A stretch of 64,000 nt of DNA from Climacium dendroides (taxonomy: Eukaryota > Streptophyta > Bryopsida > Hypnales > Climaciaceae): assembly GCA_950106755.1 (NCBI GenBank), contig OX467090.1, positions 17,607,489 through 17,671,488 of the forward strand, in the 5' to 3' direction. Positions 6,456-58,697 of the stretch are shown piece by piece. A program made the position numbers and the translations under genes. How positions within the stretch are numbered: the stretch's first letter is position 1; every line of letters begins with the position of its first letter. Under the pieces are notes generated by a model. That model saw only the letters and a list, made by a program, of their open reading frames with translations. It had not been told where the DNA came from and made no database searches.

Positions 6456-7065
6456 TACAATCGCGCCATAGTTCTCCCCAAGTACACACAGCTCAAATTC
6501 CTTCACGCTTCCTCTAAACCCTAGTAAAATTAAAAGAGCATGTCCTTCAATGTGGTTGCGCCAAACTTTCACAAGTCTCAGTAGTCCAAAACTCTAACAG
6601 CACTCTCCACAAAATTTAGTGAGAAAGGAACAACAGTAGGATGCCAGGCAAGGAAAAACCCTAAACGTGAATACAAAGTTTACACAGCTCTGCCAGAAGG
6701 AAAGAGCGAGGTCACGCGCCAGAACTCAGCGAAAGAGAAACGGCTCCACACGGCATCGAAGTTTGAATTTGGATGAATTCGTGAAGGCGCCAAAACAATA
6801 TTCATCCAAAATGTCACAATAGTCATTCAATTAAGCACTATTTAGCACAAAAAGCAAGCGTGACACTCACATTTTTGTCCTTTTTGAATATATATACATT
6901 TCTATGTATGGATGTAATCCATCTTTAAGAATCTACTTACAATATTGAATACATTAGTGTAATTGTTTTTTTAATATTCAAGAATCAATTAAAATTATTT
7001 ACAAACAAAGCTCAAGAAAAGGAAGTGTGACACTTTTATTGGCTCCTATTACCTCATATTTACCC
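6456..7065. other. Intergenic DNA, 5' flank of the 2.3-6.0 kb gene
   Basis: No gene is seen. The left part (to about 6800) has higher GC and may include the promoter of the minus-strand gene. The rest is AT-rich up to the abrupt start of the chromovirus at about 7066. Confidence 0.5.
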
Positions 7066-7800
7066 TATCGTGGTTTGAATAAGATCACCATCAAGAATTG
7101 GTATCCGCTACCCCTCATTTCTGGACTTTTTGATCAACTCAGTCAAGCAAAGATCTACACCAAGATTGATCTTCGAGGAACTTACAACCTGATCCATATT
7201 AAGGCGGGTGATGAATGGAAGATTGCATTCCGGACAAGGTATGGACACTTCGAGTATAATGTCATGCCTTTCGGTCTTACTAACACACCGGCTATTTTCC
7301 AACATCTGATGAACGATGTTTTTCATGAATTCCTTGATCATTTTGTGGTCATCTATCTCGACGACATTCTGGTCTTTTTAAAAAATAAGAAGGACCACGA
7401 AAATCAGGTCCGGTTGGTATTAAAAAAACTGCGCTCTACTGGACTTTATGCCAAGTTAGAGAAGTGCATATTTCACCAACCCGAAGTCGAATTTCTTGGC
7501 TACATTATTTCCGGAGAAGGTCTATCGATGGACCCCAAGAAGATCGAAGCGGTTATTGGCTGGAAGAGACCATCGACCATTTGAGACGTTCAGTGTTTTC
7601 TTGGTTTTGCCAACTTCTATCAAAGTTTCATAAAAAATTACTCCAAAATTGTTGCACCGCTAACCCGACTCACATGCAAGGACAAACTCGAGTGGAGTAC
7701 GGAGGCGGAGCAAGCGTTCGAGAATCTGAAAAGGGCGTTTACTACAGCGCCAATCTTGACTCATCCTGATTATCAAAAGCCTTTCTTCCTTGAAGCGATG
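7066..7800 (+). pseudogene. Ty3 reverse transcriptase fragment
   Basis: The translated RT palm is clear: [11 protein letters not shown] at the start, [17 protein letters not shown], then [11 protein letters not shown] with the catalytic YLDD, and [15 protein letters not shown] at 7582-7584 interrupts ...[18 protein letters not shown]. The same frame continues through the connection region ([27 protein letters not shown]) to a frameshift near 7796. The N-terminal part of RT, protease and gag are missing. The role was reverse transcription of the element's RNA; this copy cannot make a full enzyme. Confidence 0.9.
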
Positions 7801-8163
7801 CTTCTGACTTTGCCTTGGAAGCAGTTCTCTCGCAATCCAACGAAGATAGACGTCTCCATCCTGTCGCGTTCCATTCGCGAAAATCACGGCCGCGGAGATC
7901 AACTATGAAATCCACGACAAAGAGCTACTTGCCATTGTCGACTCATTCCAAGAGTGGCGACATTTCTTTGAAGGAGCTAAACACCCAGTAACGGTCTATA
8001 CAGACCATAAGAACCTCGAGTATTTCATGTCTGCAAAGATTTTGAATCGACGACAAGCCCGGTGGAGCATATCGTTGTTGCGTTTCAACTTTGTTATCAC
8101 GTATCGTCTTGGGACCCAACAAGTTCGGTCCGATGCTCTATCCAGAAGAGCGTATCTTGTACC
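7797..8163 (+). pseudogene. Ty3 RNase H fragment
   Basis: In shifted frames the sequence reads [13 protein letters not shown] (first catalytic Asp region), then [20 protein letters not shown], then [13 protein letters not shown] and [13 protein letters not shown], ending [15 protein letters not shown]. This is the standard Ty3 RNase H. One frameshift enters at about 7796 and a second, apparently a lost A, near 7880. Confidence 0.85.
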
Positions 8164-9298
8164 AAAGGAGGGAAACGCAGCTTATGACCAACAACGATCT
8201 ACCCTACTCAAACCCGAACAACTCCAACTCAGAACAACGCACATTACAACTTCAATGGATGTAGCGTTTCTCCAAGATATTCGAGTAAGTCTTCAATCTG
8301 ATCCTTTGGCTTTGAAATTCAAGAGCCATTCTGATATTTCAAATTCTGGAGAGATCCAAACTTTGGACTCTCAAATCCCTGATTCAGTGGTAATAGATTC
8401 GGAATCCCCAAATGAAACCACTTCTAGTCCACGGATCCATAGATCACGAGGAGGTGAAATGCCCCGAGATGATACTGATCTAAGATTCCAATTTCGTGAT
8501 GGGCTTTTGTACTATGAGGGACTACTTTATGTCCCGGAAGGCCCATGTCGACTTCGAGTGCTTTAGTCTCGACACGATTTTCCATCGGCGGGACATTTTG
8601 GTTTTAATAAAACCATGGAGCCTATTTCTAGAGACTTTTGGTGGCCACAAATGTGGAAATCCGTCAAAGAATTTGTCACAACATGTGACATCTGTTCCCG
8701 TTCCAAGATTCCAAGACATCGACCGTATAGACTATTACGGCCGCTCGAGATTCCAGAAAAGCCATGGACATCCATATCCATGGACTTCATCGTGGACCTA
8801 CCGCCTTCTAAGGGGTTTAATTCCATCTTTGTGGTGGTTGATCGATTGACCAAGATGGCACACTTTGTGCCATGCAACAAAACAATGACTGACAAAGAAA
8901 CTGCACGATTGTTTATTGACAACGTGTATAAGTATCATGGACTTCCTGACGACATCATCTCTGACCGCGGTACGCAATTCACCTCCAAGTTTTGGCAATC
9001 ATTGTTCAAAATCTTACAAGTGGAGATCAAATTGTCTTCGGCGTATCATCCTCAAACGGATGGTCAAACAGAAAGAGTTAATCAAGTTTTGGAGCAATAC
9101 CTCTGATGCTCCATCAACTATCATCAAGACAATTGAACGGACCTGTTACCACTTGCGGAGTTTGCGTACAACAACACCATCTAAGATTCAACAAAACAAA
9201 CGCCTTTCTTTGCCAACTATGGTTTCCATCCAAGGTTTGATCAATTCCAACTTTCTACTTCAAAAAGTCCTGCCACTGAAGATCTTGCAACCCGACTA
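8164..9298 (+). pseudogene. Ty3 integrase (zinc-binding and catalytic core) fragment
   Basis: After a linker, an HHCC zinc-binding module is read through a TAG at 8564: HDFPSAGHFGF, then CDICSRSKIPRHRPY. The core follows with SMDFIVDLPPS (first Asp), DIISDRGTQFTSKFW (second Asp) and SAYHPQTDGQTERVNQ (catalytic Glu). A TGA at 9104 follows EQYL. Beyond it a shifted frame still shows the integrase C-terminal half. Confidence 0.9.
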
Positions 9299-9850
9299 TT
9301 GGAGATTCAAAAAGAATTAAAGGTCAAGCTCATTGAAGCCCAAGAACGCCAGAAGCAAAATGCAAATAAGTCTCGCAAGCAACATCTACCTATTCATGTT
9401 GAAGATAAAGTCTGGCTACTCCGTCGAAACCTCAGAACTCATCTACCAAGCGATAAATTGGACTATCGACGTCTTGGACCATTCTCGGTCATCAAACAAG
9501 TCAATGATGTGGTTTACCGATTAGAATTACCACCCTCCATGAAGATTCATCCAGTATTTCACGTTTCTCTTCTTGAGCCGTATAAAGACTCTACTATTTC
9601 TGGACGGCTACAAGCACCTCTTCCTCCAATTGAAATTGATGGCGCAAAAGAATTTGAAGTCTCAGAGATCCTTGATTCTCGCATCAACCGAGGAAAATTG
9701 GAGTATCTTGTCCATTGGCAAGGTTACGAGATTCATGAACGAACTTGGGAACCTGCTGCCAACCTTGCAAACGTCCCGGAGATGATCGCAGAATTCCATC
9801 ACGAGATTCCATCACGAGTATCCATCGAAACCCAAAAATGTTTGAGCCCA
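9299..9850 (+). pseudogene. Integrase C-terminal domain plus chromodomain of the chromovirus
   Basis: An open frame reads KVWLLRRNLRTHLPSDKLDYR and HPVFHVSLLEPYK, the usual integrase C-terminal (GPY/F-type) region. A chromodomain follows at about 9655-9810: KEFEVSEILDSRINRGKLEYLVHWQGY, given here only as its key residues (Y-LVHW-GY, TWEP). Chromodomains of this type direct integration into methylated-histone chromatin. The frame continues to 10225, but the part after about 9850 shows no known domain and is probably untranslated 3' DNA. Confidence 0.88.
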
Positions 9851-10346
9851 AGACGTCTGAACCAACACCAACGCCATATCAAGATTTTGGATAGGCGCGT
9901 GTGTAGATGTAAAAGCATTGAACAGAAGCATCGAAAAGTTGGTGTGACCCACAAGGCAACAGTCAAGATAGCTCAGTTGAGGGATACGCCTACAGGCCGA
10001 AGTCAGGCTCGAACCCTCGTCACTTGTAAGTTATTTCTTCTCTTGTGCTGCCTCGCCGATGTCCTTGTTTTGCGACCATGTTACCTTTATACGGTTGCCC
10101 GCCTCCACCACTGTTCCTGCCAATGCGCTGTCTTATTTTCCGCCGCCATCTCCGATATTGTTCCCGACCAGATTCCGCCATACTTCGGCTGTTTTTTCCG
10201 CTGCCTTCCAAACATTCTCCGCTAACGGAATTCCGACAACCGTTAGTTCTGTATTTTTAGTGTGACCCACGTGAATATACGTGGGTTCCCATGTAGGTTA
10301 CTGCCAAGTCATTAGACAACAGAGGGACTTGTGAAACTCGCCCCTT

Positions 10347-17185: not shown

Positions 17186-17390
17186 GGGCAATTTTGTTAA
17201 ATCCGCCACTTTGACAGTTTTTACGGTCTGGATTGAGCAGTTCAACTTGTACAAATGTGAAACTTCTTAGATGTCTAAATCTACATCATTCTTAGATGTT
17301 TCAAAACTACATTTGTGCTAAATGTTACTTTTACAATTCAAATTGTACAATCTAAAATCTATACAATTTCTAATTTTAAAAAAACCAAAA
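17186..17390. mobile_element. Copy of the GGG(C/G)AATTTCGTT MITE family (one end visible)
   Basis: It begins gggcaattttgttaaatccgcc and then follows the inner sequence of the 20659-20975 copy (gtctggattgagcagttc, ttagatgtctaaa, ctacatcattcttagatg). The right terminal repeat is not clear. Confidence 0.7.
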
Positions 17391-17399
17391 CCAACTCAA

Positions 17400-19315
17400 A
17401 AATCTATAATTTTCTCACTATGAGTTAGAAGGCCACGAAACAAAGCCCATGCACCCCTCCTCGCTGAGAGCTTTCTGACAATACCAAGATTGTGACCAAA
17501 TTTTTTTTTTTAATTTCTAATTTATTAGTTCATAAAAATACTTCAAAATTCAATAACTTTCTCACCATGAGTCAGAAGGCCACAAAACCAAGCCTGTGCA
17601 CCCCTTCTCACTGAGGGCTTTCCGATGGTACTAAGATTATGACCAAAATATAAGAAAAAGTAATTTTCTAATTTTTTAGAACCAAAAATAACTCAAAAAT
17701 GCACAACTTTCACACCGTACGTTAGAACGCCACAAAACCAAGCTAGTGCACCCCTCCTCGCCGAGGGCTTTCCGCCGGCACCAAGCACACGACCGGGAGA
17801 CGCACGGTCCGGGAGATCTCAACATGACAAACAAAACAAACAAACAAAACAAACAAAACAAACCACCTATCTTAATAGAAGAGACTAGAGTGGCCTGTGT
17901 CGTTGCCACAGTTAATACAAAAGTAAAAGTAATTTTCTAATTATTTAGTTCATAAAAATACTTCAAAATTCAATAACTTTCACACCGTGAGTTGGAACGC
18001 CACGAAACCAAGCCGGTGCACCCCTCCTCGCCAAGGGCTTTCCGACGGTACCAAGCACGCGACCGGGGGAAGCACGGTCCGGGAGATCTCAACGTGACAA
18101 ACAAACAAGCAAACAAACAAAACAAAACAAACATGCTGTCTTAATAGAAAGACTAGAGTGGCCTGTGGCGTTGCCACAATCAAAATAAAAGTAAAACTAA
18201 TTTTCTATTTTTTTAGAACAAAAAACAACTCAAAAATCCATAACTTTTTTTGTTGTGAGTCAGAACGCCACAATATACATCCCATGCATCCCTCCCCGCC
18301 AAGAACTTTCTGACGGTACCAAGATTGTGACCAAAATATAAATAAAACTAATTTTTTAATTTTTTTAAAACCAAAAAATGCATAAGTTTTCTATTGTGAG
18401 TTGGAATGCCACGAAACCAAGCCGGTGTACCTCTCTTTGCTGAGAGCTTTCCAACGGTACCAAGATTGTCACCAAAATATAAGTAAAACTAATTTTCTAA
18501 TTATTTAGTTCATTAAAAAAACTTCAAAATTCAATAACATTCACATGGTAAGTCGGAATGCCATGAAACCAAGCCCGTGTATCCCTCCTCCCTGTGGCGT
18601 TGCCACAATCAAAATAAAAGTAAAAGTCATTTTCTAATTATTTTAGAACCAAAAATAACTCAAAAATACATAACTTTCTCACCATGAGTTGGAATGCTAC
18701 GAAACCAAGCCTATGCAACCCTCCTCCCCGAGGGCTTTCCAACGTTACCAAGATTGTGACCAAAGTAAAAGAAAAAGTAATTTTCTAATTTTTCAGAACC
18801 AAAAATAACTCAAAAATACATAACTTTCACGCCGTATTTCCAAATACCACAAAACCAAGCCAATGCACCCCTCCTTGCCAAAGGCTTTCCAACGATACCA
18901 AGTACGTGTATCTTGTGCCATTGCCATAGTCAAAACAGAAGTAAAACTAATTTTCTAATTTTTTCAAAACCAAAACCAACTCAAAAATGCATAACTTTCT
19001 CATCGTGAGTTGGAATGCCACGAAACCAAGCCTGTGCATCCCTCCTTCCTGAGGGCTTTCCGATGGTACCAAGATTGTGACCAAAGTAAAAGAAAAAGTA
19101 ATTTTCAAATTTTTTAGAACCAAAAATAACTCGAAAATGCACAACTTCCACACTGTACGTCCGAACGCCACGCAACCAAGTCGGTGCACCTCTCCTCGCC
19201 GAGGGCTTTCCAACAGTACCAAGCACGCGAGTGGGGGATGTACGGTCCGGGAGATCTCAACGTGACAAACAAACAAACAAAACAAAACAAACATGATGTC
19301 TTAATAGAAGAAAGA
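17400..19315. repeat. Satellite-like tandem array, about 11 copies
   Basis: Units carry the block gccacgaaaccaagcc, then a 'gtgcacccctcctcgcc' variant, gagggctttccgacggtacc and aagattgtgaccaaa. Copies are recognised near 17468, 17610, 17758, 18030, 18298, 18437, 18590 (internally deleted), 18727, 18875, 19048 and 19200. The basic unit is about 145-150 bp. Three longer units (about 17790, 18050 and 19215) add a segment with 'gcacggtccgggagatctca' and an aacaaacaaa run. Open frames in the array (for example the Lys/Asn/Gln-rich ones) are repeat artefacts. Confidence 0.9.
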
Positions 19316-44100: not shown

Positions 44101-44350
44101 GCATAATTTCTCAAGTGTGCAAAGACAACTAACACATAGCAATAGAAAGGAGGCATATAAAGAAAAAAAAGGGAGAGTACTGCAAATATACCTCTGCTTC
44201 AAGAAGTCTGGAGTGCTGCCTCAACGCCATTCTTCGGACAAAACCTTCATATGCCAAGCTTCACATCAACAGTCTTCCACCAGTATGCTAGAACTGCAGT
44301 ATACACTTATGGTGTGCAATGTTTTCAATGCCTCCAAGTGTTCCTATAGA

Positions 44351-44360
44351 CAGGGTTGTC
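44351..44360 (+). repeat. Left terminal inverted repeat of the hAT element
   Basis: CAGGGTTGTC is the exact reverse complement of 58680-58689. The next 90 bp on both ends are rich in CGTCC/GGACG and GTCAC/GTGAC motifs but not colinear. Confidence 0.88.
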
Positions 44361-44364
44361 CCCG

Positions 44365-45470
44365 TCACGTCGCGTCCGTCAGGATGTCCGGACGGACGTC
44401 AGGATCCATCCCCGGCGTCCGTCAGGATGAAATCCAAATGACAACCGACGACAGAGGATGATTTAGACTACAGAAATGGATGGACGAGCTTCGTCGCCGG
44501 GAGCTCTGGACGGCTGCGATGGACGGTCGGATGAACGGTTGATGTGGACGGTTGGGCTGGACGGTCGATCTGGATGGTCCGGTTGGATGGCCGAGATGGA
44601 CCGTCGACCTGGATGGTCCATTTGGACCGTCGATCTAGACGGTCTGGCTGGACGGTTGATCTGGACGGCCTGGCTAGATGGTCGATCTGGACGGCCTGGC
44701 TGGACGGTCGATCTGGACCGTCGATCTAGACGGTCTGGCTGGACGGTCGATTTGGATGGTCGATCTTGACCGTCGATCTAGACGGTCTGGCTGGATGATC
44801 GATCTGGACGGCCTGGCTAGACGGTCGATCTGGATGGCTTGGTTGGATGGTCGATCTGGACGGCCTGGCTAGACGGTCCGGCTGGACGGCCGAGATGGAC
44901 GGTCGATCTGGATGGCTTGGCTGGACGGTCGATCTGGACAGCCTGGCTGGACGGCCGAGATGGACGGTCGATCTGGACCGTCGATCTAGACGGTCTGGTT
45001 GGACGGTCGATCTGGACGGCCTGGCTAGACGGTCGATCTGGACGGCCTGGCTGGACGGTCGATCTGGACGGCTTGGCTGGACGGTCGATCTGGACGGTCC
45101 GGCTGGACGGCCGAGATGGACGGTCGATCTGGACCGTCGATCTAGACGGTCTGGCTGGACGGTCGATTTGGACGGTCGATCTTGACCGTCAATCTAGACG
45201 GTCTGGTTGGACGGTCCGGTTGGACGGCCGAGATGGACGGTCGATCTGGACGGTCTGGATGGACGGTCGAGATGGACGGTTTGGCTGGACGGTCAAGATG
45301 GACGGATTGGCTGGACGGTCGAGATGGACGGTTTGGCTGGACGGTCGAGATGGACGGTTTGGCTGGATGGTCGAGATGGACGGTTTGGCTGGATGGTCGA
45401 GATGGACGGTTTGGCTGGACGGTCGAGATGGACAGTTTGGTTGGACGGTCGGGATGGACGGGCTTTGAAT
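44365..45470. repeat. GGACGG array A (left subterminal; 13-bp units in 26-bp dimers)
   Basis: From about 44476 the sequence is a run of 13-bp units of the type ctggacggtcgat alternating with ctggacggcctgg or gatggacggtttgg, roughly 75 units. Units with 'ggaccgtcgat' create local palindromes. Because 13 is not a multiple of 3, all forward frames stay open for up to 209 codons with a 13-residue period (WTVDLDGLAGRSI). These are not genes. The array sits just inside the left TIR, where hAT elements carry clustered transposase-binding sites. Confidence 0.92.
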
Positions 45471-45616
45471 TTGTTGCACTTAACCCCTAAACATCTAGAC
45501 TCTTCTTCCAAAATGACAATTTGGAAAATACCATTATAAAGTATGATTTAGAAGAATATTTTTGAATTGGTATACAAACAGAAGTTGTAGATTTTGAGTT
45601 GTAGATTCCATCCGTA

Positions 45617-45995
45617 AGGTTAGATCCACCAATGCTATCACCAATCTTTTTCTATACATTTTGAAAGGAAAAATTCAAAATTCCTTATTCCTTCAGAATT
45701 CAATTACAAGCAAAATATTATCATTCCTCGATTGAAATTTGTTGGAATGGACTTAAAATGAGGTTGCGTTGATATGGTGATTTTTTGAAATTTTTATACT
45801 CTTTACATCTATGACCTCATTTTTGCAAATTCAATTTTGAACTAGGGTCAATGCAAGTTGACCACTTGACACACTTCCACATTTGTAATTTTAGAAAAAT
45901 GTGTATTCTAAGAACAACAAATCAAACCATTAGATAAGACATGAACTAGTCAACTAGATAAAGTATCACCAAAAATTAGGATGACTTTGATCCAA
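45617..45995. repeat. Dispersed repeat, copy 2 (copy 1 at 19313-19640), inside the hAT element
   Basis: It has the same orientation and order as the 19.3-kb copy (ggttagatccaccaatgcta, ctttacatctatgacctca, aaattaggatgactttgatc). No coding capacity. Confidence 0.85.
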
Positions 45996-46124
45996 GCAAA
46001 AACCAAACTGAAATAGGAAGCTGAATTTGTTCATCGTCCAAAAAATGGTTAACCCCTACATGCCCAAGGCACCCAAATCTGGTGTTGTTCAAACTTTGAA
46101 GTTAAAAAGTTGTTCTTGAATTCT

Positions 46125-46690
46125 AGTTATAGCATCAATAGTCTGTTCTTAAAAATATGTGATAGTGATTTTTCTATTCTAAACTTTGTGCAAGGGTACC
46201 TATTGCAATCTTGACTTGTTGTAGTATTGAGAGGTCTTGGAAATGTGCCTCAAAAACATTGGATCTTGGAGGAAAAATCACATTCAAAATTCATTTAAAA
46301 TTAAAGAAAATTATGGTATAGATTTTTAAAAGGCATAAATTGATTGGGGTTATACATATTAGGTCCTCTAATCTCATATTTGTTTGGTCACCTATTTTTT
46401 AAATTGGACTTGTAAAAAGAGGATTGTAAGACTTCACATCATTTTTTTAGTTTTAGCACCCTCCTGGGCAAACATTATAATCTTTTACTCCATAAGTGAT
46501 ATTGTTTAGGATTTCTTTTCTATGAGGTAACTAACATGCCTAGTTCGAATTTATACAATTACAATTTTTTGAAAATTGATACACCTAATGAAAATGTTGA
46601 TATGTTGTTCAATTTAGAGCAAATTCTACAAAGCTCAAAGCAAACCTTGGGCATCTAGGATTCTAAGGATAAGGGATTAAAGTTTGTTAT
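46125..46690. repeat. Dispersed repeat, copy 2 (copy 1 at 40225-40780), inside the hAT element
   Basis: It is colinear with 40.2-40.8 kb in the same orientation (tgcaatcttgacttgttgta, ataaattgattggggttata, tttagagcaaattctacaaa). It follows the previous repeat closely. Confidence 0.85.
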
Positions 46691-47014
46691 TGAATTTCTA
46701 ATTACAAAAGTTGCTAAATTGATTTTACATTGTTTGGCAAGAAATAAAAAAATAATAATCCGTGAGGGTTCTACCATCTAAGTATATAAGATTCTTCTAC
46801 ACTAATAGGAAAACGGCCAATGGATTAACCCAAAAGACAAAGGCAAAGCAACAATACACGAGGAGAAAAGAAAATGATAAATGTACAATGTTTTATAAAT
46901 CCATCAAAACGTGGTACATTGGTTTAGGCTTTACATTGCTCTACTTTGTACAACTTTAGAAATTTAATTCTATGCATCTATCTATTTGTACACAGCGTCA
47001 TCCAAAACTATCTA
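46691..47014. other. 3' flank of the RING gene
   Basis: AT-rich DNA without a gene, probably including the 3' untranslated region of the minus-strand RING gene. Confidence 0.45.
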
Positions 47015-49304
47015 TTATATTTCTTCAATTACAATGCCTCGTGCTATGCTGCTTCTCAAAAATCTTTGCAACTCTTCTCTTGATTGCAAAGTCGTCAAAA
47101 GCTGATGTGCATCATAATCATATATGTTGTGTAAATGGGAGAAAATGGCACTTACAAGTGTAGGCTCATGGAAGGTATTGTCTTCAATGTAGTTCATTTC
47201 TTCCTCAAAACTCAATTCACCTTCGAATCCAACAGGCATGCCTTGAGAGTTAAACATTATGCCTTGTGGATGTGGTGCACGCACAAAAATGGAGAGGTCC
47301 GGGTCCCAATGTCCACCAGCAATTTGACCAAAATATAATCGCCGCCCTGGATCACCATCTCCAATTACCCTCTTAATCACCTCTGTCACCGCGTCATCAT
47401 TCTCCCAGTGTATCTCTACAACCGTTCTTGCCGGGAGGTATCGATTGTCGTGGCCCCACTTCCAAAGCCAAGTCATGTCCATCCCCCAATGCGCTCTATT
47501 CGTGGGCCCCGGTAAATTTTCTTCATTGTGCTCGTAATGTTCACGCATGTGGGCTTGGAGGCCAAACATTTTGTACAGCCTCGGATGAAATGGAGCCTTG
47601 CATTGTGCACATCTTTTTCGGGTGACCATGTGTGGAATGAGGCACATGGGGTGGTATAAATGGCCACATGTACCAAGATGCCATCCACCCTCGGGGCCAA
47701 ATGGTTCTTGGCACATAATACATATGGTGCCGTCTTGTACAAAATCGGGAACCAAAGGCCACACTAGTGGCCTAATCCCATCGCCGTTCGTTGGCTCGTA
47801 TCGATAGCGCTCCGTGTCGTATTGGAATTCCAAGTCTGGAGAACTATTCCAATCGATGCTTGCATTCTCGAGCTTCACTAGCAAATCATCAGTGAACATT
47901 TCTTCCACTCAAGGCCACGAGGTCAAGCCAAAATAACGTTCGCCGCCATCATTGAACTCCGCAGCCACTTTCTTCACTTCACGTTGCATTTGCTCAACCT
48001 CGCTTAGTGCTAAGCTGCATGTCAACTTCATATTGCACATTTGAAGCAGCATGCGTTCCTTTTGCGGGTTTTGGACCAACCGCATATTTCGAGCACTTAA
48101 TGCGGTCATGGTCTGCTCCAAGCCAGCTTGAGTTGTAGTAAGCACCACCACATCTGCCTCGGCTTTGTTGGCGCGAAGTTCCAAAGCCCGCATAGCGTTT
48201 GTCAATTCTTCAACGTGGGCTTTAGTACTTCCAACCTCTGCTTCAACTCGCTCCGCACGTGCACGCATAATATCCAACGTGGCACCTCCAACACTTGGAA
48301 ACAAGGACCGTGACCGCACCCTAAACTCGTTTGCATTGCTGGGGCTTGGTCTGTCTTCGTTTGCACCGTATGTAGCACGTTCGACCACCACATCAAGTGG
48401 TGGAATTTCGTCCGTACTCAACCGCCTTTCACGTGCTATGAGGTCGGCCTCGCGTGCGATGAGTCTTGCATTCTCATCCATAAGGGCCTGCACCCTAGCC
48501 CTTTGCCCTTCCAACTCTGCAGCATGTTGTCGTAATGCGGCTTCCTTTTCTGCTTGCAGTGTTTGGACTAATTGTCGCAAGCGAAGTACTTCATCACCTT
48601 CACCTTCCACTCCACCAATCGCATCTTCATTGGGTAGGTCTTCTCCGGTGCCCATGCCACCCTCTACCTCCATCACCTCCATCCCGGATTGCTCCACTTG
48701 CTCTTCCGGGTTTTCTTGCACATTGGGTACATTGTCCAATGGCACGGTAGGGTTTGGTAGAATGCTGCGAGGTCTATTTGGTGATTGACCATGACGCATC
48801 TTGCCGAGGAAGGTTCTCCAATCCACATCCTTCCCAAGAAAAACTTCCGCATATGCTATTGGCACAACGAAAGGGTCCCATCTCTTCTGGATCTCGAACC
48901 CCAAATTGCCAATGCCACTTCAATCAATCTCTTCTTGAAGTGCGGATGTCGGCACTGGTCGAAATTTACAATCCCGCATTTCACATTTATCTCGTACCGG
49001 TCAGGTGCCCAATGGCGGTTGATGTGGGCCCAATCTACGAACTTCCGACACGTCACTCTTGTTCACGGTGAATCTTCATTCATCCACCCCTCGTTTGCCA
49101 GAATCTCCGGGGCATTGAGTGTGCCCCAATCTAAGGTTGCCCTGTTCCCCCTCTTCTTTCTATTTGCGGGCTCACCTCTATGTCCTGAACCTCGTGCTGC
49201 ATCCTCTCCGTCTATTTTGGATACCTGTCCAAAATTTCCCTGTACCTGTAGTCTCTTTGCGGATACACTGACAATTTGCTTTGCCTTCTGTTGCGTGAAG
49301 GCAA
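47015..49304 (-). pseudogene. Cargo gene: coiled-coil protein with RING-H2 finger
   Basis: A minus-strand gene whose visible exon starts after a tttgctacttttcag acceptor at 49304. It reads through TGA 49063, a one-base frameshift near 48905 and TGA 47909 to its end at 47015. Domain order: a lysine-rich start (NRKKRGNRATLDWGTLNAPE), a conserved block (DWAHINRHWAPDRYEINVKC...), then WDPFVVPIAYAEVFLGKDVDW and an acidic linker. Two long coiled-coils follow (about 48600-48430 and 48260-47960). Last comes a RING-H2 finger, CIMC...CGHLYHPMC...CAQC (C-x2-C, C-x-H-x2-H-x2-C, C-x2-C), and a 180-residue C-terminal domain of unknown type. RING fingers usually act as ubiquitin ligases, so a role in protein turnover is inferred. 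An upstream exon was not identified. It is convergent with array A and downstream of array B. Confidence 0.72.
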
Positions 49305-49430
49305 CTGAAAAGTAGCAAAACAAATGCCAGATGTATAACACTTCCTCTCGAATTACAATGCAAAGCTTTCTCAAGCAAGGACAAAGCAACTCAAAAGAGG
49401 AAGCGATTTCAAATGAGGGGGATAAACATA

Positions 49431-49436
49431 CTTATA
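49431..49436 (-). promoter_or_regulatory. Candidate TATA box of the RING gene
   Basis: tataag on the minus strand, about 55 bp downstream of array B and about 130 bp before the recognised exon. The same site (ggag|gtataagt) could instead be a splice donor, so the assignment is tentative. Confidence 0.35.
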
Positions 49437-49489
49437 CCTCCGAATTACCGATCCAATTACGCCCGGTGATTAGGACGTAATCATGTCGT

Positions 49490-49945
49490 CCAGCTCGAAT
49501 CCGGACCGTCCAGGGATGTGGGACGGCCCTGGAATGGACGGTCAATCCGTCCACGAAGGTTCGGGACAGGTTTGGAAAGCCGTCCAGAGGTTCGGGTCAA
49601 GTTTGGAAAGCTGTCCGAAGGCTCGGGGCGCCGAAAAGAGGATTGGAAAATCATTACGGCGCCGTCCGCGACGGCGAAAAGAGGATTGAAAAATCATTAC
49701 GGCGCCGCCCGCGAGTTCCTTCGACAGCTTGCCCGTCCTGCTGGACGGCTTGCCCGTCGAGATGGACAGCCTGCCCGTCCCCTCGACAGCTTGCCCATCG
49801 AGCAGGACGGCCTGCCCATCCCCTCGACGGCTTGTCCGTCGAGTTGGACGGCCTGCCCGTCCCCTTGACGGCTTGCTCGTCCCCTCGACGGCTTGTTCGT
49901 CGAGCTAGACGGCCTACCTGTCCCCTCGACGGCTTGCCCTTTGTG
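49490..49945. repeat. GGACGG/CCGTCC array B, upstream of the RING gene
   Basis: Units such as gacggcttgcccgtcgag and tggacggcctgcccgtcccc recur, with a first part carrying gtccagaggttcgggtcaag-like repeats. Both orientations of GGACGG are mixed. The GC content contrasts sharply with the flanking AT-rich DNA. Short open frames here are repeat artefacts. Confidence 0.88.
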
Positions 49946-51224
49946 TGTTCATGATTGAAATTTTCTATTGCTACTACCAAATGATGTGAAAAATTCATTC
50001 AATTGAAGCAATTTTGGATCTCTCAACAAAGTTGTTTACAAAGTTTTTGAGATTTACAAGTTTTCTTTTCAATTCTTAAATTTGTTTTGCCATTGTTTGT
50101 AACAATTGAATCAAATTAGTAATGCATTTTATTATATATTTTATCTTTTACAACATTCACCATTGGATATATTTCATTCATGATTGAATAAATATTTATT
50201 TTATATTTCAATATATTCTTATTTATAAAAAATTTATATAAAGATTTTAATAATTTGGATTTGAAAATTTATTGGAATTTGTGTTCTGCATTTTGTCAAA
50301 TACATTAAAATTCTAATAATACATGTAGATCTTTTACATATTGCCCATTGCATATATTTTATTCATCATTCAATAAATTTCTATTGTACATTTCAATATA
50401 TGCTTATTTATAAACAAAATTATATAAAGATTTTAGTAGTAAATAGAAGGTTTATTGAAATTTGTGTTCTTTATTTTATCTAATACATAAAAATTCAATA
50501 AAATTCAAATGATGAATGTATAGCATAGCAAGCGCCAACCACTATCATACTACTAAAATCACAAGGTCCTTTGTAATACCATAATTTTACACAGTGTGAT
50601 ATTACAGAGGCCCAATACCTTTATAATATCACATTTTAACACCGTATAATAATACAAAATTGCAACAGCCACTCCACTTCTGTAACATCACATAGTGTTA
50701 AAATGTGATATTATAAAGGTACAGGGAATATTATGGATGTTAAGGTATTCTTGGCTTCACACTTCATTCAACTTGCATGGTTCGATGATTTTGAGAATTA
50801 ACTAGCGGTTATATGAGGATGTCAGTATTTCCATTTAAAGATTATATATTCTTTAATTATCTACATTCTATTATGTGAAACACCATATTGGTTCACTTTT
50901 AATGTAATAGGAAATAAGTAAAATATAGATATGAGTTTTAGATTCAAAAGTGTTAGTATCCTAAATTAAACTAAAACCATTAGTTAGAAGACTTTTAGTA
51001 TATAGGACAAGAAACTAGATCAAAATTTCAACCCAAAGGACAAATGTAATATATTACGATTTTTGGCGAAACATTTGTTAGAAAACTATATGAAATATTA
51101 GAAGACATTCATCTATTTTTGGATTTGGTCTTACTTCAATTTGAAATTATTTGCTAAAATCACATAAAGTTGAGCAACATCAAATAGTCTTAAAAGGAAA
51201 ATAAGAAAGAGCATTTAAAATATA
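49946..51224. other. AT-rich spacer inside the hAT element
   Basis: No gene is seen. Similar blocks recur near 50150-50240 and 50330-50430 (attgaataaat/caataaattt, ttcaatatatdcttatttataaa), an old duplication. A perfect inverted repeat is listed separately. Confidence 0.5.
50617..50720. repeat. Perfect 26-bp inverted repeat with 52-bp loop
   Basis: 50617-50642 (acctttataatatcacat...) is the exact reverse complement of 50695-50720. Imperfect copies of the arm (gtgatattacagagg, about 50594) lie just outside. It could be a MITE remnant or a hairpin-forming transcript. Confidence 0.85.
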
Positions 51225-51420
51225 GGTTTAGGATATAGGGTGTGGGGTTTAGGGTATAGGGTACAAAGTATAGCGTATAGGGTTTAGGATATAGGGTATA
51301 GGGTTTAGGGTTTAGGGTATAGTGTATAGAGTATAGGGTTTAGGATATAGGGTTTAGGGTTTAGGGTTTAGAGTATAGGGTTTAGGGTATAGGGTATGGA
51401 TTATTAGAGTTTAGGGTTTA
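51225..51420. repeat. Degenerate interstitial telomere-type repeat
   Basis: TTTAGGG units alternate with variants TATAGGG and TTTAGGATATAGGG over about 195 bp. TTTAGGG is the plant telomere unit. A short opposite-strand run (cctaaaccctaaaccc) occurs at 52085-52100. Confidence 0.88.
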
Positions 51421-52329
51421 CTTGGAAACATAAATCAGAGTATAAGTTTATCTTCCAGCATAGATAGGGGAAGTCCTCTTGTTTTTGTGTATTGGATCAA
51501 ATGCAAGAAGTAAGAATGTTTGTAATGAATCAATGATTCTATATTATACATTTTTTTTTCGGCGTTTTTTAGATATCTTTTTTAATGAACGATTTTAAAA
51601 TTAAGTTTACGATATCAGAGTTTAGCTTTTAGAGGGCCATTTTGTCTTTGATTCTGTATATTTGATATGGACTTAGTAAATTAGTGAATGTTTGTATGTT
51701 TGAATTGAGTACATGCAGGTTGAATATTCAAGAAATACTAAATTGTGAAATTGTTAGGTGCACTTACATATAGGGAAGCTTGGAATCAAATTACAATAAT
51801 CCCAAAGGTGAAATTACTCTATATGGAATTCTAAAATTCATTGCATTTAAATTTGATCCATATAAATTATTTAAGTTGTGAGGGGATGCCTTGATCGTTG
51901 TAATACAAACATTGGCCACGACTTTCTTATTATGAGTGCAAATGAAATGACCCAATTTTTTATGTGAACATCAAAAATATTCCAGGTCTTAAATTAAGAT
52001 GTTTTGAATATGCCCTTTTGTAGTTTTGGTCTATGTTTTTCCCTTTATTTATGTGCAACTAAATAAAATTCCATTTTATTCGAGCCTAAACCCTAAACCC
52101 TTCATCTGCATTTGAATGTCATTATTGGTATTTATTTGTACATCCATAGGAACAAACATGAACATTTAATTGGCACTCCAAAACTTCCCACCACCATAGA
52201 CAATGTAGTAGTTCAAACATGGACACCTGTCCTGACAAGTCCCAGGGTGGAAAACAAGATAATTGAGAAATTCCCTAAACAAGGATTCGCAATTAATTCC
52301 ATGCTTCCAGCACTTTGGGCGACAGCTTG
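51421..52329. other. AT-rich spacer upstream of array C
   Basis: No gene was recognised. Confidence 0.5.
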
Positions 52330-52560
52330 TTTCGACGGTCTTTTCGTCCTCTGGACGCCCTGGACGCCCGTGGATGGGGGACGGAGTCCGTCCTCTTGAC
52401 GGCATGACCGTCGATCTGGACGACGCGACCGTCCACTCGACGGCATGTCCGTCCTGTCGACGGCCTGACCGTCGATGTGGACGGCATGACCGTCCTCTTG
52501 ACAGCATGTCCGTCCTGTGGACGGCATGCCTGTCCAGCTCGACGGTCATGCCGTCGAGAG
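52330..52560. repeat. GGACGG/CCGTCC array C, upstream of the kinase-like gene
   Basis: Units such as ctcgacggcatgtccgtcct and gacggcatgaccgtcgat recur in mixed orientation. The array stops about 10 bp before a TATA-like box (52569). Confidence 0.88.
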
Positions 52561-52568
52561 GAAATGGG

Positions 52569-52575
52569 TATATAG
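52569..52575 (+). promoter_or_regulatory. Candidate TATA box of the kinase-like gene
   Basis: tatatag lies directly after array C and about 190 bp before the ATG at 52763. The spacing fits a core promoter with a leader of about 150 nt. Confidence 0.5.
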
Positions 52576-52762
52576 AAGGGGGTTGGATTCATTTCTGCCA
52601 CAGTCTCTCTTGCTCTGACGGTGCTCGCTTGTCTTGGATTGGTTGCAGTCCTTGCTTGGGAGCGCGGGTGCTTGTGAGAGGCTGGTTTGAGGAATAAGGG
52701 GGCGGTTTTTTACTTTGTGGAATCCGAATTCCTAATTCCTCTGGATTATCACTACTATCACA

Positions 52763-54406
52763 ATGGCTGGTCGCGATTTCTCGAAGAGGAAGGTTGATGC
52801 GTGGTTTTTAGGAGTTGGAGATGGAACGAGTTTGGACCCGTTTGAGGAATCAGAAAGCCAGATTTCAGAGGCTGTAGCTGCAGAAGGAGCCATAGCAATT
52901 GTGGGTGCGGGAGAGTCTTTGAAGTCGAAGAAAAAACAACGGAAAAGGCACAAGGCCACAAATCTAGAGAAGTGGCCAAGCAAGGTTGCAACGCGCAAAT
53001 TGCATGAAGTGGCGTTGGGTTTTTTTGAGTAGTATTCGATTCCGCAGTTGAACACAACATATGTGTCGCGCGGATTACAAGGGGTGGATGCCATCAAACA
53101 AAAGTTCCACCATATATTTTGGACAACAATGAGCGAGGATGAGTGGTTGGAAGACCGCACAAAGGAATCCTTCAATCATTGGCTAGAGTCACAAGTGCAA
53201 ACGTGCATCTTCAACCTTGCCCAAGTTGCGGAAAAAATCAAAGGCTTTCAAAAGAGTGTAGTTCCCAAACAACAAGCATTGAATTTGTTGCATAAGAAGG
53301 TGTATTGGTGGCATGAAGCAATGCGGGGACTATCTTCAAACAACATCCGTTTTGCTCCGTGGTTTCAGCGAAGTCAAAACTTGGCCTTTGGTCAACAAGC
53401 TGCGGGTGGAGTGGTTTTTCTTGAGAGAGGAGTTGTGGTGGTTCCGTTGTCTGGCCATAACAAACAAGGGGGGCACGGGAGGGTGCGCAAGGTTTGTCTT
53501 CAGAATTCGAACCATATTCCCGAGAATATGGAATTAGCTGGGAAGTCGGCCGTGCGCGTTGATGACTTGAAGAAGTCAAGGGAAAAGTTGTCCATTGAGG
53601 CATTGGTTTGTCCATGCGATCATCCAGGGGTCATCAAATTCTTTGCCATAAATGACATGACCATGGAGTGTTATTCTCAATGGTGGAATGGAGGTACTCT
53701 GGGCGCCATGTTTACCCTCGATGAGAAGACCCGAGATCTAGACGAAATTGGGGAGGTGGCTTACCATGCAACTCCACAAACAATGCAAGCTATGAAACGA
53801 CTTATGGCATACAGACGGAAGCGCACCGAACTTGCGTGGGCGTTGCTCTGCATTGTGGATGCAGTGCAACAATGTTCAGTACTGCACAACGACATCACAC
53901 CGGAGAACATCATGCTTCACTTTCCGAATGACGATGGAAGAACCGTGTGGATTGGTCTATGTGATTGGGGAATGGGTAGCCGCATCAATAAAGAAACCCC
54001 TTCTCTTTACCAATTCAGTTGTGCAAATAAGTTGCAGGCAACTCGCAAGCAATGTTGGTGGGTGGCTCCGGAGTTGATGTACATGGTTGGAGAGACAGGA
54101 ACTTCAATATCTCCTAGTCGCATGGGTGAGCCACCATCTGTTAGTATACACACGGATGGATACTCCATAGGGAGATTGGCTATGAAGGTATGGAAAAAGG
54201 ATCGCGAAAATACAGAGATGATTTCTGACCATACGGCATTTGATACATTTCAAGCGACACTGGGTGAATTGTGCAAGGTGGAGCCACTACAACAATGCTC
54301 AGTGACATTTGCCATGCAACGTTTAAGTGGTGCTCCAACGTTTTGGACACCACCCGTGGATTGCTACCGCGAGGCCCGGAAAGAACAAGACCTTCAAGAT
54401 GACTAA
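52763..54406 (+). pseudogene. Cargo gene: protein-kinase-like protein with one in-frame stop
   Basis: One frame runs from ATG 52763 (MAGRDFSKRKVDAWFLGVGD) to TAA 54404-54406, 547 codons, broken only by TAG 53030-53032 (GFFE*YSIPQLN). The N-terminal third has a basic patch (KSKKKQRKRHK), a possible nuclear signal. The kinase fold follows: Gly loop QGGHGRVRKV, strand AGKSAVRVDD with Arg where the ATP-binding Lys is expected, and helix C EALVCPCDHPGVI. Next come the hinge (YSQWWNGGTLG), catalytic loop VLHNDITPENIML, CDWG in place of DFG, VAPEL for APE, and HTDGYSIGRLAMKVW. Catalytic Asp, Asn and metal Asp are present. The Lys-to-Arg change suggests weak or no activity. It has no introns, points towards the transposase, and has array C and a TATA-like box upstream. 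Partner and substrate are unknown. Confidence 0.78.
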
Positions 54407-54993
54407 ACGTGCAATGAGGATTCAGGATTAGATGATAGTGTATTACCATAGATTTGCAAAATTAATGTTTTCTTAGCAAATGTGGTTATTATAGTATCGG
54501 CTTGAGGACATCCATAGCAATGTAGCACACTTTGTGCCCTCAATCCATTTTGTACTCGTTTTTATATATATATAAATGTATTTTATCTAAACATTGAGTG
54601 TATCTTTTTTTTATCACACCTCAAATAAGTAAACAACTACAACAAACACCTTGAAGTCAAATTTGACTATCAACCCAAATTTATCTTTTTATTCAAAATC
54701 AGTAGAATATTTTAATATTTTTGGCTAGTATAAGAATCCATTTTCTAGTTATGCCTTTTTTAATTTAATGAAAAAATCTATTTATTTTGATTTTAGAAAA
54801 GCTAAACATGGAAATCAAATCATATTAGTTACAATATGTATCAAAATAAATTGAAACCCTTACCATAAATGAAGGATAGAATGAAAGGAACAAAAGTACT
54901 TCATATTAATGCCGACTTCAATATGTAAGGTATTGAGCCTCAAAATCCATTGCATTTGAAAACATGAATATCCTATTGTCTTTTGAAAAACAT
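54407..54993. other. Convergent intergenic spacer
   Basis: AT-rich DNA between the 3' ends of the kinase-like gene and the hAT transposase. No further feature is seen. Confidence 0.5.
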
Positions 54994-57900
54994 TCAACGT
55001 CTTCCATACCTAAGAACGCGCCTAGAAGTATTGGTCGTTACTTCTGCTACAATTAGTTCATTACCACCACTTTCTACTCGTGGACCTTGTCGAGGCATTG
55101 TCCCTAGATAATCACTATCTCTTGGAACCTCACCATCTTCGCCTATACTAGCACCGATGGACTCGCCATCATCACTGGATGTTGCACTACCACTTTCGCT
55201 AGAGGCATTCGAATTTCGATTTCGTTGTGGTCGAATTATAGAAGACAATGTTCGAAGAGGCCGTTGGCCCGTTGCGTCCATAATGCCATCTATACTAGGC
55301 CCTCCTATGTGAACTTCTCTTGAAAATGGTTGGGATGTCGCTTCTTCTCTCGTTAGTCTTCTACGTGTTCTAGGACTCACACGTTGACTAGTAGTACCTT
55401 CATGTCGTGGATGCTTCCCTCGATTATTGGCGCGTGTAGGTAGGTGCAATGAAGTCGGGTTTGTAGTCGTATGCTGGGACACCATACTAGCCAATCGTGT
55501 ACCTATCATTGAAGTGGGTCCATGTAGACGAACTCCGGAATTAGATGGCCTGGCTGAACTTTGGATTTGTAAATTCTCTAGTATTGGTGTTTGATGTTGT
55601 AGTGCAACATCCCCTTGACTTGGAGGGGGCATATCTAATTCTCCACCATGAGGGGGCCCTTCTCCGTGGGTGGTCCTCGTAGGCAATGATTGTGGTACTA
55701 CTACGTCTTGTTCACGTCCTCTTTCTATGTCAACACTATCTCTTTCCATTGGGGCATCAACTTGTACATCGATAGGATCTGGATTTAGTGGTCTCGGTGC
55801 CACAATGTCTTCATTCGTATTTCCCCCGCTTGGCCCAACATTCCACCCTTGTGGCATTTGTAGTGGACTTCCATCATATCCCTCGTGGTTATTGTCGTTA
55901 TTATCCCCCTCTTCAAAGTCAAATACAGATGCATCAATTAGAAGACGCACTCCTCTCGCCCCCTGAAATCCATGGAATGGTGGGTCATCGCCATCATTGG
56001 AACTATCATCTGAATCGTCATCATTGGGGTTAGAGCGAACCGAACCACGGTCTAGACCATCCGATTCATCTGTCATGGAATCTTCTGACATCATGTTCTC
56101 GGTGTACCACCTTGTCGGATTTGTTGCAGCCCTTTCTCTAAGAGTTTTGGAATTGGTGTAAATGTAAACCAATTCCTGAGCACACTCTGATGTCAGTCTA
56201 TTGCGTGATTTGTTGTAGACAAATGAATACATGCTCCAATTGCGTTCACACGACGATGCAGAGCACACTTGGACGAGGATCTTTTTTGCAATTGGTGCAA
56301 GTGTACGAGCACCGGCTCCGAGAAGGTCCCACCATTCGTAAGGCTACAAATTTAAAGTGTTTACATCGGGAAGTCTACCAAAAATGCCCCGACGATCTCG
56401 AAATGCTTGGTACTCAGACAAAGCTGAAGCAAATGCTTGATCTGGAACAGCCAATTTGCGCAATACTCTCAATATGCCTTCTCTTGCCTCGTCATCATCC
56501 ATTAGCAAAACTTCGTCAAGTAAAAAAGGATTCAATAGAGCCCCAGCATAATGCAAATCTGTCCTTAGCATGCCCCAACGCTTGTAGAAATCATCGATGG
56601 CAGGAATTGCATACCGTGGTTCCAAAGAAAATGGTGGATCCCGTAGAGATAAAACATGCTTTTCCACCTTTTTCATCACAAGCCATGCCTTGTCTAAGCA
56701 TGGGTGCTTGCCATCAAACTCTCTAAGAGCAACCAATACGGGCTCCACTATGTGCACAAAGTTTAAACATCTCCTCCAAAATTCATCAGTTCGTACATAC
56801 CGTCGCACATCGTTGGCTTTTCTTTTCTTTTCCTCTGATGTCAATCTCTCTGTGTACTCATTCCATTGCGGATCGTGGATTGTTGATTCTATCGCTACCC
56901 TCACATGTACCAAACGCTCAATCATAAGGAACATGGTTGCAAAGCGTGTTTCAACGGGATTCTTCAAAATGAGATTAGGAGAATGTCGTCGAAAAATTGC
57001 AAGTGGTATGTGATGTGTGCGAATGTATTTCACAATTGACTTGGCTTTCTTGACCATACTTTTTATCCAATCTTGTTTGCCCCAATCTTCAAGTAGAAGG
57101 TCAAGTGCATGTGCTGAACACCCTTGAAAATATAAGTGTGGAAATTGACAAAGTAACAAAGCACTAGCAGCCAACATGTTCCCTGCATTGTCTGTACAAA
57201 CTTGTACCACATTTTGCACCCCTACCCTGTCAATATAATCACCCATGCAATTAGCCACATAAGTAGCATCTTTGCGTTCGCCTGTTGTGTCTATTGCTCC
57301 AAGAAATACCTCTCCACTTGTACATGCCAATATGACATTCATCAATGGTCGATGGCTGACATTGTCCCATCCATCAAAGCATATTGTAACGCCGTACTTG
57401 TGGATTGGTGCCTTTGTCTTCTCCGCTACCATTGCCGCCACTTCGTCTTTTGTAGATTTCATGAGGTTTGTACGAAGTGCATGGTACGCTGGAGGTTTGT
57501 AGCCAACTCTCGATTCTGATGTTGATTTCACGGCATTCAAAAAAGCCGGATGCCTCGCTACATTGAAAGGTATATTGGCTTCATAGAAGAACTTAGCCCA
57601 CTTTTTGTTTAGTACTTGCTTGTTTGATGTATTCATTCCTTCTTGCACAGACAATTGCCTCATTGATCGACTGTGGGCCAAACTCGGGTTGGGTGCGTCT
57701 GATGATCGTACTTGAGAGCTTTGTCCCCTAGTGTTTTCTCCTCCATCGTTTCCTGAGATTGAGGCATCAGGTTCTTGTTTACCACGTACAACACTCAGAA
57801 GTACCATTGATGGAGATGTCACTTCCACATCCTGTCCACTCCTGTCCGAAGTGCTTGCAGGTATATCCCCTCCGCAATTAAAAAACATTAGCTTCACGGT

Positions 57901-58077
57901 TGCACTAACTTTAGTGCAGGCTCTCACTCCAGGGAGCTTGTCTATTCGTCGGTACCCCAAATGGAAAAGCAACCGATCTTTTCGATAGCTTAGCAAAGCT
58001 TCGCAAAACTTGCAAGCAACTTTTCCATCCACTCGTAATGTGTACCAAGGTTCCCAATGTGATCTTCCTCCACCCAT
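54994..58077 (-). pseudogene. hAT-family transposase with a long C-terminal tail and one in-frame stop
   Basis: A single frame of about 1027 codons from ATG 58077 (MGGGRSHWEPWYTLRVDGK) to 54994, interrupted only by TAG 56344-56346. Order: a BED-like zinc finger (CKFC...H...C) in the first 60 residues, and a Ser-rich linker. A DUF659/RNase H-like core follows (GVTICFDGWDNVSHRPLMNV, VVQVCTDNAGNML with acidic catalytic residues, CSAHALDLLLEDWGK). After the stop lies the hAT C-terminal dimerisation domain (PYEWWDLLGAGARTLA, CSASSCERNWSMYSFVYNK). The last 370 or so residues are a low-complexity acidic, Ser/Asn-rich extension not usual for the family. Without readthrough the product lacks the dimerisation domain and should be inactive. 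It is the enzyme class that would move this element. Confidence 0.9.
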
Positions 58078-58293
58078 TGCTCTTATCTATTCTTTCCTAC
58101 TTGCCCCTGCACAAGAAAGAAGATTAGTATTATGTATGAAATGCGATGTAGAAGCAATACTTGTTGCTCTCACAACAAGTGCCACCACAACACATTCTTC
58201 TTGGATTTTGCTTTACCGCAATGGTTGTACTCCAACCAAGTCATGAAAGCCAAAATCAGCAAGGAAAAGTAATCTTGAATAGGCGTAAGTCCT

Positions 58294-58300
58294 TAATATA
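58294..58300 (-). promoter_or_regulatory. Candidate TATA box of the hAT transposase
   Basis: tatatta on the minus strand, about 220 bp before the ATG at 58077 and about 85 bp downstream of array D, the same arrangement seen at the kinase-like gene. Confidence 0.45.
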
Positions 58301-58384
58301 CACCTTTCAGGGCGATCCTAAAACCCTAAAACCCAGCTATACGGACTAATGCAAGCGGCTGATGTGTCGACGGGTGGACCCTAA

Positions 58385-58679
58385 ACCCAACGGAAACGGC
58401 CTCCCGTCTTGGGGACGGCTTCCCGTCCTGGGGACGGCTTCTCGTCTTGGGGACAGCTTCCCGTCCTGGGGATAGCTTCTCATCCTAGGGACGGCCTGCC
58501 GTCCGGGGGACGGCTTACTGTCCGGGAGGCCGTCCAGGAGTCCGTCCACAACTGGACAGACTTCATCCATGCTGAAACGGTCACGTCAGTATTGGTGACG
58601 GATCCTGACGACGTCACGACACGTCAGGACGGACGCGTCATGACATCCGGACGTGAAAAGCCCACGTCACGTCCGGATA
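58385..58679. repeat. GGACGG/CCGTCC array D (right subterminal, upstream of the transposase)
   Basis: Units cccgtcctggggacggctt are repeated with small changes from 58400 to 58530. They are followed by a looser stretch of cgtcac, gacgtca and ggacg motifs up to the right TIR. It mirrors the left subterminal array in motif content. Confidence 0.88.
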
Positions 58680-58689
58680 GACAACCCTG
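58680..58689 (-). repeat. Right terminal inverted repeat of the hAT element
   Basis: GACAACCCTG is the exact inverse of the left end at 44351-44360. It is followed by cctgtaga, the right target-site copy. Confidence 0.88.
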
Positions 58690-58697
58690 CCTGTAGA

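Follow-up and report, generated by a model that had tools for sequence, protein, structure and literature searches.

A hAT transposon family with RING-H2 and protein-kinase genes and shared motif arrays in Climacium dendroides

We analysed a stretch of 64,000 nucleotides (hereafter the window) from contig OX467090.1 of the Climacium dendroides assembly GCA_950106755.1 and found a 14,339-bp unit at window positions 44351-58689 that represents a single decayed member of a hAT transposon family, termed F1 here, which carries a RING-H2 gene and a protein-kinase gene alongside its transposase gene. The three genes keep a fixed layout at dozens of loci, and they lie between the same terminal inverted repeats (TIRs) wherever both ends of an element could be made out. 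An initial annotation of the window had proposed that a RING gene and a kinase gene are stable constituents of a hAT element; the co-occurrence of these genes between the same TIRs at other loci supports that proposal. The finding is real and larger than first noted: the copy is decayed, its gene set is common to a divergent second family (F2), and arrays of the type found at the element ends also stand before all of the genes. The best reading of these observations is an old hAT clade whose transposase gene shares its regulation with two accessory genes, those for the RING protein and the kinase.

Results

Borders and gene content of the window element

The unit has perfect 10-bp inverted ends and 8-bp flanks that agree at seven of eight positions. 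The left TIR, CAGGGTTGTC (44351..44360, plus strand), has its perfect inverted partner in the right TIR, GACAACCCTG (58680..58689, minus strand), and the two are bordered by the left and right target-site duplications, CCTATAGA (44343..44350) and CCTGTAGA (58690..58697), respectively. The element thus shows an 8-bp target-site duplication, a short TIR beginning with CA (CAGGGTTGTC) and hAT transposase domains, as hAT elements do. From left to right it contains an array of 13-bp units, the RING-H2 gene (minus strand), an AT-rich middle, the kinase gene (plus strand) and the hAT transposase gene (minus strand), and all three genes of this copy are broken.

The border evidence within the window is weak, in that a 10-bp inverted pair beginning with CA, together with a duplication matching at seven or more of eight positions, was obtained in 5 of 20 dinucleotide-shuffled windows. 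Because shuffled sequences yield such pairs, the window alone is insufficient, and other copies were therefore read; these copies settle the borders. The agreement of 10-bp TIRs, 7/8 duplication and hAT transposase on the same borders, as given in the initial annotation, is confirmed by the sequence itself and by 7 of 10 other copies, in which the left TIR stands in the same place with up to two mismatches.

Family F1 across the assembly

A search of the assembly (412.6 Mb in 123 contigs) gave at least 93 matches for the F1 kinase, at least 77 for the transposase and at least 132 for the RING protein. These counts are lower bounds, and all F1 locus counts given below are among the matches listed. 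Merging of neighbouring pieces left 76 kinase, 75 transposase and 78 RING loci, the last including three rows of 62-67% identity. A transposase gene is found within 30 kb of 73 of the 76 kinase loci, in every case downstream, encoded by the other strand and usually at a distance of about 1.94 kb, and a RING gene is found within the same distance of 74 kinase loci, in 73 cases upstream and divergently oriented. Both partners are present within 30 kb at 72 of the 76 kinase loci, and 64 loci fit a strict layout; when positions are drawn at random, on average only 0.775 of 76 have both partners nearby (maximum 4, 200 trials). The F1 kinase is not nearby at 3 of 75 transposase loci and at 6 of 78 RING loci. 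The outcome in which other RING or kinase genes always lie outside such TIRs, named in the initial annotation as one that would speak against it, is not what we see, given 72 of the 78 RING loci with a kinase and the transposase counts above.

Ten other copies were read. They had been chosen for a stop-free kinase match, and stop counts among them are therefore biased in favour of the kinase. Every one of the ten has kinase and transposase genes, and nine have the finger part of the RING gene; copy C37c retains only a piece of the RING upstream part. A TIR pair with at most two mismatches per TIR was identified in seven copies, with spans of 13.7-16.4 kb, and the borders could not be made out in the remaining three (C16, C2 and C37c). 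Perfect 8/8 duplications, all different from one another, flank six copies (CTTGCCGG, CCTCTTTC, CTATACAA, CATGCTAC, CTCCACGT and ATTGGAAT), and one copy has a 7/8 duplication. The differing duplications and the recurrence of the whole unit also speak against the concern that the two TIRs belong to different insertions.

The initial annotation had further suggested the recovery of empty sites at the orthologous locus in relatives. Within this assembly, a paralogous empty site exists for copy C37b: its flanks, joined with a single CTCCACGT, align without gaps to a repeat elsewhere on that contig (498 bases, 87% identity). The joined flanks of copy C1 match, at 67-74%, a repeat that is also found inside F1 elements, which is a weaker case than that of C37b. 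No empty site of the window insertion was found in this assembly, where the sole matches were its own two flanks.

Some F1 loci are arranged in unusual ways. Opposite-facing F1 kinase pairs, about 23-27 kb apart and with equally truncated transposase matches, are present at G000:C2:12950981/12977837 and G000:C34:9751191/9774180; they may be inverted duplications or assembly effects. At G000:C34:6380398-6384856 a diverged transposase (74%) and a RING gene (64-67%) are encoded on one strand about 2.1 kb apart, with no listed kinase.

The three genes and their proteins

The RING-H2 gene (47015..49431, minus strand) is made up of the finger (47015-47908), a coiled-coil-like upstream part (47909-48919) and further frame pieces up to 49431, and a reading of its frames indicates two or more stops as well as a shift of frame. 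Its zf-RING_2 score of 22.4 is below the Pfam cut-off of 27.3; the relative P0001 passes with 31.2 bits, and the C3H2C3 pattern is present in both. Besides this finger the RING protein has a conserved C-terminal part. The first search for RING relatives among public proteins was limited to candidates of 0.55-1.75 times 297 amino acids, so that full-length relatives could not show up in it. RING relatives were absent from the viral contigs searched.

The protein-kinase gene (52763..54406, plus strand) has 548 codons with one in-frame stop, and its product passes PF00069 with 33.9 bits against a cut-off of 31.7. The catalytic motifs (glycine loop, Lys, Glu, HND, Asn, DWG and APE) are present in the window copy and in 7 of 10 relatives. 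Among the ten relatives retrieved from public proteins, seven (474-569 amino acids) are 58-82% identical and one of 626 amino acids is 35% identical. The viral and prokaryote contigs searched contained no kinase relatives.

The hAT transposase gene (54994..58077, minus strand) has one in-frame stop and encodes DUF659 and Dimer_Tnp_hAT domains and a long acidic tail. Both domains match Pfam above cut-off (PF04937, DUF659, E 3e-38; PF05699, Dimer_Tnp_hAT, E 1e-7), and the tail, which is probably disordered, is kept in relatives. Matches to named land-plant transposases reach only 27-31%.

Open frames are present elsewhere in the assembly: the kinase has frames of 553-562 amino acids (10 rows without a stop in the match), and stop-free matches were also seen for the transposase (open frames of about 1030 amino acids) and the RING protein (792-806 amino acids). 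In separate searches, contigs of length 6480 gave the kinase P0008 (71%) and the transposase P0018 (73% over the core), and contigs of length 10923 gave the RING protein P0002 (96%) and the kinase P0011 (95%). The matching contig sizes suggest, short of proof, that the genes are linked in other samples as well.

Motif arrays at the ends and upstream of each gene

The motif GACGG/CCGTC occurs 139 times in the window, and 113 of these occurrences are concentrated in four arrays that together measure 2.6 kb, each of which is richer in the motif than any of 200 shuffles of its sequence. The left-end array (44361..45500) consists mostly of 13-bp direct repeats, with 64 motifs in 44351-45500 against no more than 23 after shuffling, and was recognized in 8 of 10 copies. 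The other three arrays were recognized in 10 of 10 copies. They lie upstream of the RING gene (49506..49932; 20 motifs in 49440-49990), upstream of the kinase gene (52334..52555; 16 motifs in 52300-52600) and at the right end, where the array coincides with the transposase upstream region (58369..58632; 13 motifs in 58080-58689). Opposed neighbouring motifs in these arrays are 8-11 bp apart, or about one helical turn, in 8 of 11, 11 of 11 and 5 of 9 cases, respectively.

A second element is shared by the three upstream regions. TATA-like boxes, identified by eye, come after the upstream arrays, near 49434 (RING), 52570 (kinase) and 58300 (transposase); each is in turn followed by TCCTTGCT, with its complement at 49374 for the RING gene, the sequence itself at 52649 for the kinase and its complement at 58258 for the transposase. 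This sequence is found five times in the 64 kb, three of them in the three upstream regions and in gene orientation. In the ten other copies it is at the expected place, judged in bins of 250 bp, upstream of the kinase in 10, the RING gene in 8 and the transposase in 8.

The divergent family F2

A second family carries the same three genes. F2 kinases are 31-34% identical to the F1 kinase and gave 84 matches, or 80 loci after merging. At all three F2 loci that were read, a RING gene with 33-37% identity to the F1 RING gene is placed head-to-head with the kinase; overall, F2 RING identity to F1 is 33-44%. One of these, locus A, of 30 kb, also has a hAT transposase on its RING side, which is about 39% identical to that of F1 over 565 residues and 52-56% identical to P0022 and P0024. 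An F2 transposase is found within 30 kb of 55 of the 80 kinase loci, in 52 cases in one geometry, compared with a mean of 0.98 and a maximum of 4 for random positions. F2 RING loci were taken from the RING list obtained with the F1 query and are therefore incomplete; among the 46 divergent RING loci listed, 31 face an F2 kinase head-to-head and 28 are accompanied by both kinase and transposase. A candidate description of F2 as lacking a transposase, prompted by the match between loci A and B ending before that gene, was dropped in view of these transposase counts and because locus B is apparently cut by the end of another element.

The F2 TIR is that of F1: locus A has an exact match at its left end, and locus C has one at its right end. 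The gene order of F2 differs from that of F1 and the three genes are the same; with roughly one-third identity between the families, the three-gene set has outlived both a change of order and deep divergence. Each family has its own motif, GGACGG in F1 and GGGCGYGGAC in F2, and in both families the motif occupies the element ends as well as the region preceding each gene. At locus A, all 43 of 43 occurrences of GGGCGYGGAC and close variants fall in four regions, drawn after the motifs had been seen: the left end (10), the transposase upstream region (24), the RING/kinase intergenic region (7) and the right end (2). GGGCGYGGAC is found 0 times in 16,025 bp of locus A flank and 0 times in the window.

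Seven rows of the F2 list, at 52-58%, may represent a third family, to judge by their sequence identity. Kinases with 52-56% identity to the F2 kinase, which probably make up such a third family, are located at G000:C1:2488351, C1:5355107, C39:24656422, C41:19608999, C2:6283727 and C37:6742502, and one of them abuts the F2 element of locus B. At G000:C39:4403943-4583573 there are five decayed F2 kinase copies about 44.6 kb apart, with four F2 transposase pieces at equal spacing; this series may be a tandemly multiplied block that includes an F2 element, or an assembly effect.

Decay of F1 copies

The coding regions of 11 F1 copies are 0.7-2.9% removed from their majority sequence. C-to-T or G-to-A changes account for 797 of 988 differences, with rates of 5.0% in the CHG context (196/3895), 4.0% in CG (247/6147) and 1.5% in CHH (354/23,886), and 37 of 40 new stops are single changes of this type. 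This is the sequence pattern expected of copies that are silenced and methylated in a plant-like genome; it and the TTTAGGG-like repeats fit a genome of the green lineage.

Other features of the window

The segment at 45618..46638 of the element is akin in sequence to host repeats at 19.3 and 40.2 kb. Several other F1 copies hold it between the left TIR and the RING gene, and it is therefore older than the spread of F1; an earlier view of the repeat at 45.6-46.7 kb as a fresh nested insertion was dropped since several copies match at the corresponding place. Telomere-like TTTAGGG/TATAGGG repeats occupy 51221..51420, in the AT-rich middle between the RING and kinase genes. Outside the element, the window contains Ty3/gypsy pieces at 6958-10225, whose integrase end includes a chromodomain (SH3_Tf2-1, Chromo), two open reading frames of 356 and 195 amino acids at 2273-4228 (minus strand) without a Pfam family, which are perhaps pieces of another mobile element, and a long tandem array with units of roughly 150 bp at 17264-19227.

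Discussion

A proposed role for the accessory genes

The explanation that we consider fairly probable as a whole is that F1 is a hAT family with RING and kinase genes of its own, under array-based co-control, whose products modify the transposase or a host factor. It includes the propositions that F1 is autonomous and was amplified fairly recently, and that the RING and kinase genes are part of the element itself and not the chance cargo of one copy. In mechanistic terms, the transposase, probably through an N-terminal BED-like finger, would bind the end arrays and assemble a transposition complex, and the transposase or a partner would also bind the arrays at the three promoters, placing all genes under joint control. 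The RING protein, as a putative E3 ubiquitin ligase, and the kinase would then allow transposition to continue by modifying either the transposase or a host factor. The most plausible purpose of such modification would be to act against host silencing. The bolder and more specific idea that the two proteins are switched on together by an array-binding element protein and disable a step of host silencing for their own family is a tentative one, and we hold it to be possible but less likely than not; it would imply that the motif, binder and module of each family evolve together. We infer from the conservation between F1 and F2 that selection has probably acted on the RING and kinase genes, and the targets of the two proteins are likewise putative, as suggested by sequence.

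Several observations weigh against this explanation. Comparison of non-synonymous with synonymous changes per site gives ratios of 0.56-0.82 among F1 copies, which means that the changes are mostly decay and is by itself no sign of selection on the RING and kinase genes. The kinase relative P0006 has N in place of the HxD Asp, and the relatives P0011 and P0012 are fragments without the full motif set. Pfam gives no BED match in the transposase, where an N-terminal C-x2-C ... H pattern is seen by eye only, and both structure models are of low confidence (mean predicted local distance difference test scores of 44.9 and 46.2). As for F2, neither partner is listed within 30 kb at 20 of the 80 kinase loci, two positions of the right TIR are mismatched at locus A, where the flanks also lack a matching target duplication, and the right-end array of that locus amounts to only 2 motifs.

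Alternative explanations

The same data can be read in other ways. The RING protein and the kinase might only tune their own transposase, through its stability, localisation, dosage or a phosphorylation switch, with host silencing not being their target. The same motif upstream of all three genes fits such a closed feedback circuit, and the long, acidic and probably disordered transposase tail that is kept in relatives could be a substrate; most hAT elements, on the other hand, manage without such genes, and we regard this narrower role as nearly as probable as action against silencing. Passive capture of host genes that are useless to the element (Pack-type cargo) would agree with the frequent capture of gene pieces by plant DNA transposons (PMC13317346; PMC6431247), and with the ratios of 0.56-0.82, which indicate no strong constraint among F1 copies. 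The captured genes would, however, be full-length and not fragments, with the kinase catalytic motifs kept, the same gene set is found in two families about 32-44% apart, and in both families cargo and transposase genes share motif arrays, all of which makes passive capture improbable. Roles other than action against silencing, tuning of the transposase or passive carriage make up the rest of the probability.

It is barely conceivable that the unit is a composite in which two or three elements sit side by side or one within another, the TIRs stem from separate insertions and the inner arrays are the ends of a second element. The inner arrays do resemble the end arrays, and a 10-bp TIR pair with a 7/8 duplication did appear in those 5 of 20 shuffled windows; yet copies of the whole unit are present at many loci, six of the ten that were read having perfect duplications, there are no TIR-like 10-mers with 0-1 mismatches inside the element, and the sole exact inverted pair of at least 10 bp between the inner arrays is without matching flanks. 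The view of the inner arrays as the ends of a nested element found no support.

Relation to known transposon systems

F1 is a hAT family by its duplication, TIR and transposase domains, and it departs from known members of that superfamily by its accessory gene pair and the placement of its motif. It shares with Ac/Ds, Hermes and Tol2 the DUF659/Dimer_Tnp_hAT transposase, the 8-bp duplication, the short TIR and a short motif repeated in the ends. Classical members measure a few kb and have a single transposase gene, and to our knowledge hAT elements are generally regarded as one-gene transposons; F1 measures about 14 kb, has two extra genes and carries the motif upstream of every gene as well. 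In Hermes, subterminal repeats are bound by the BED fingers of the transposase (PMC10368747).

VANDAL elements with VANC (Hi, VANDAL21) resemble F1 in two respects: they have accessory genes in addition to their transposase gene, and their non-coding sequence is densely populated by family-specific motif arrays. The motif is bound by VANC, which removes DNA methylation; in the accessible portion of that source VANC is not described as a kinase or RING protein (PMC5735166). VANDAL elements are of the Mutator type, whereas the F1 transposase is of the hAT type, and the F1 arrays also occupy the element ends and the sequence immediately preceding each gene. The En/Spm protein TnpA binds the end motif of its element and also acts on the methylated promoter; binding of end motifs in the manner of TnpA is proposed for F1, but En/Spm belongs to the CACTA superfamily and is not known to have a RING or kinase gene.

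Two further systems are comparable in size or content. ToxhAT of fungi is likewise of the hAT type, measures about 14 kb and has a gene other than that of the transposase; this further gene is host-directed cargo, and a RING-kinase pair is not mentioned in the available part of the report (PMC12506042). The giant Burro retrotransposons of planarians encode domains linked to ubiquitination; these are long terminal repeat retrotransposons with the domains contained within a huge polyprotein (PMC6431247). We found no description of a hAT element with a RING and kinase pair in the open-licence literature, which misses most subscription journals.

Implications

A clade of hAT transposons has kept two enzyme-type accessory genes while diverging to about one-third identity, and one motif serves both the element ends and the upstream region of every gene. 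It can now be tested whether DNA transposons of eukaryotes encode machinery that counters host control by post-translational means. Two families with different motifs and many copies offer natural contrasts, and the kinase, the RING protein and the arrays are defined parts. If the module does act against silencing, it would be a kinase/ubiquitin counterpart of VANC in an unrelated superfamily.

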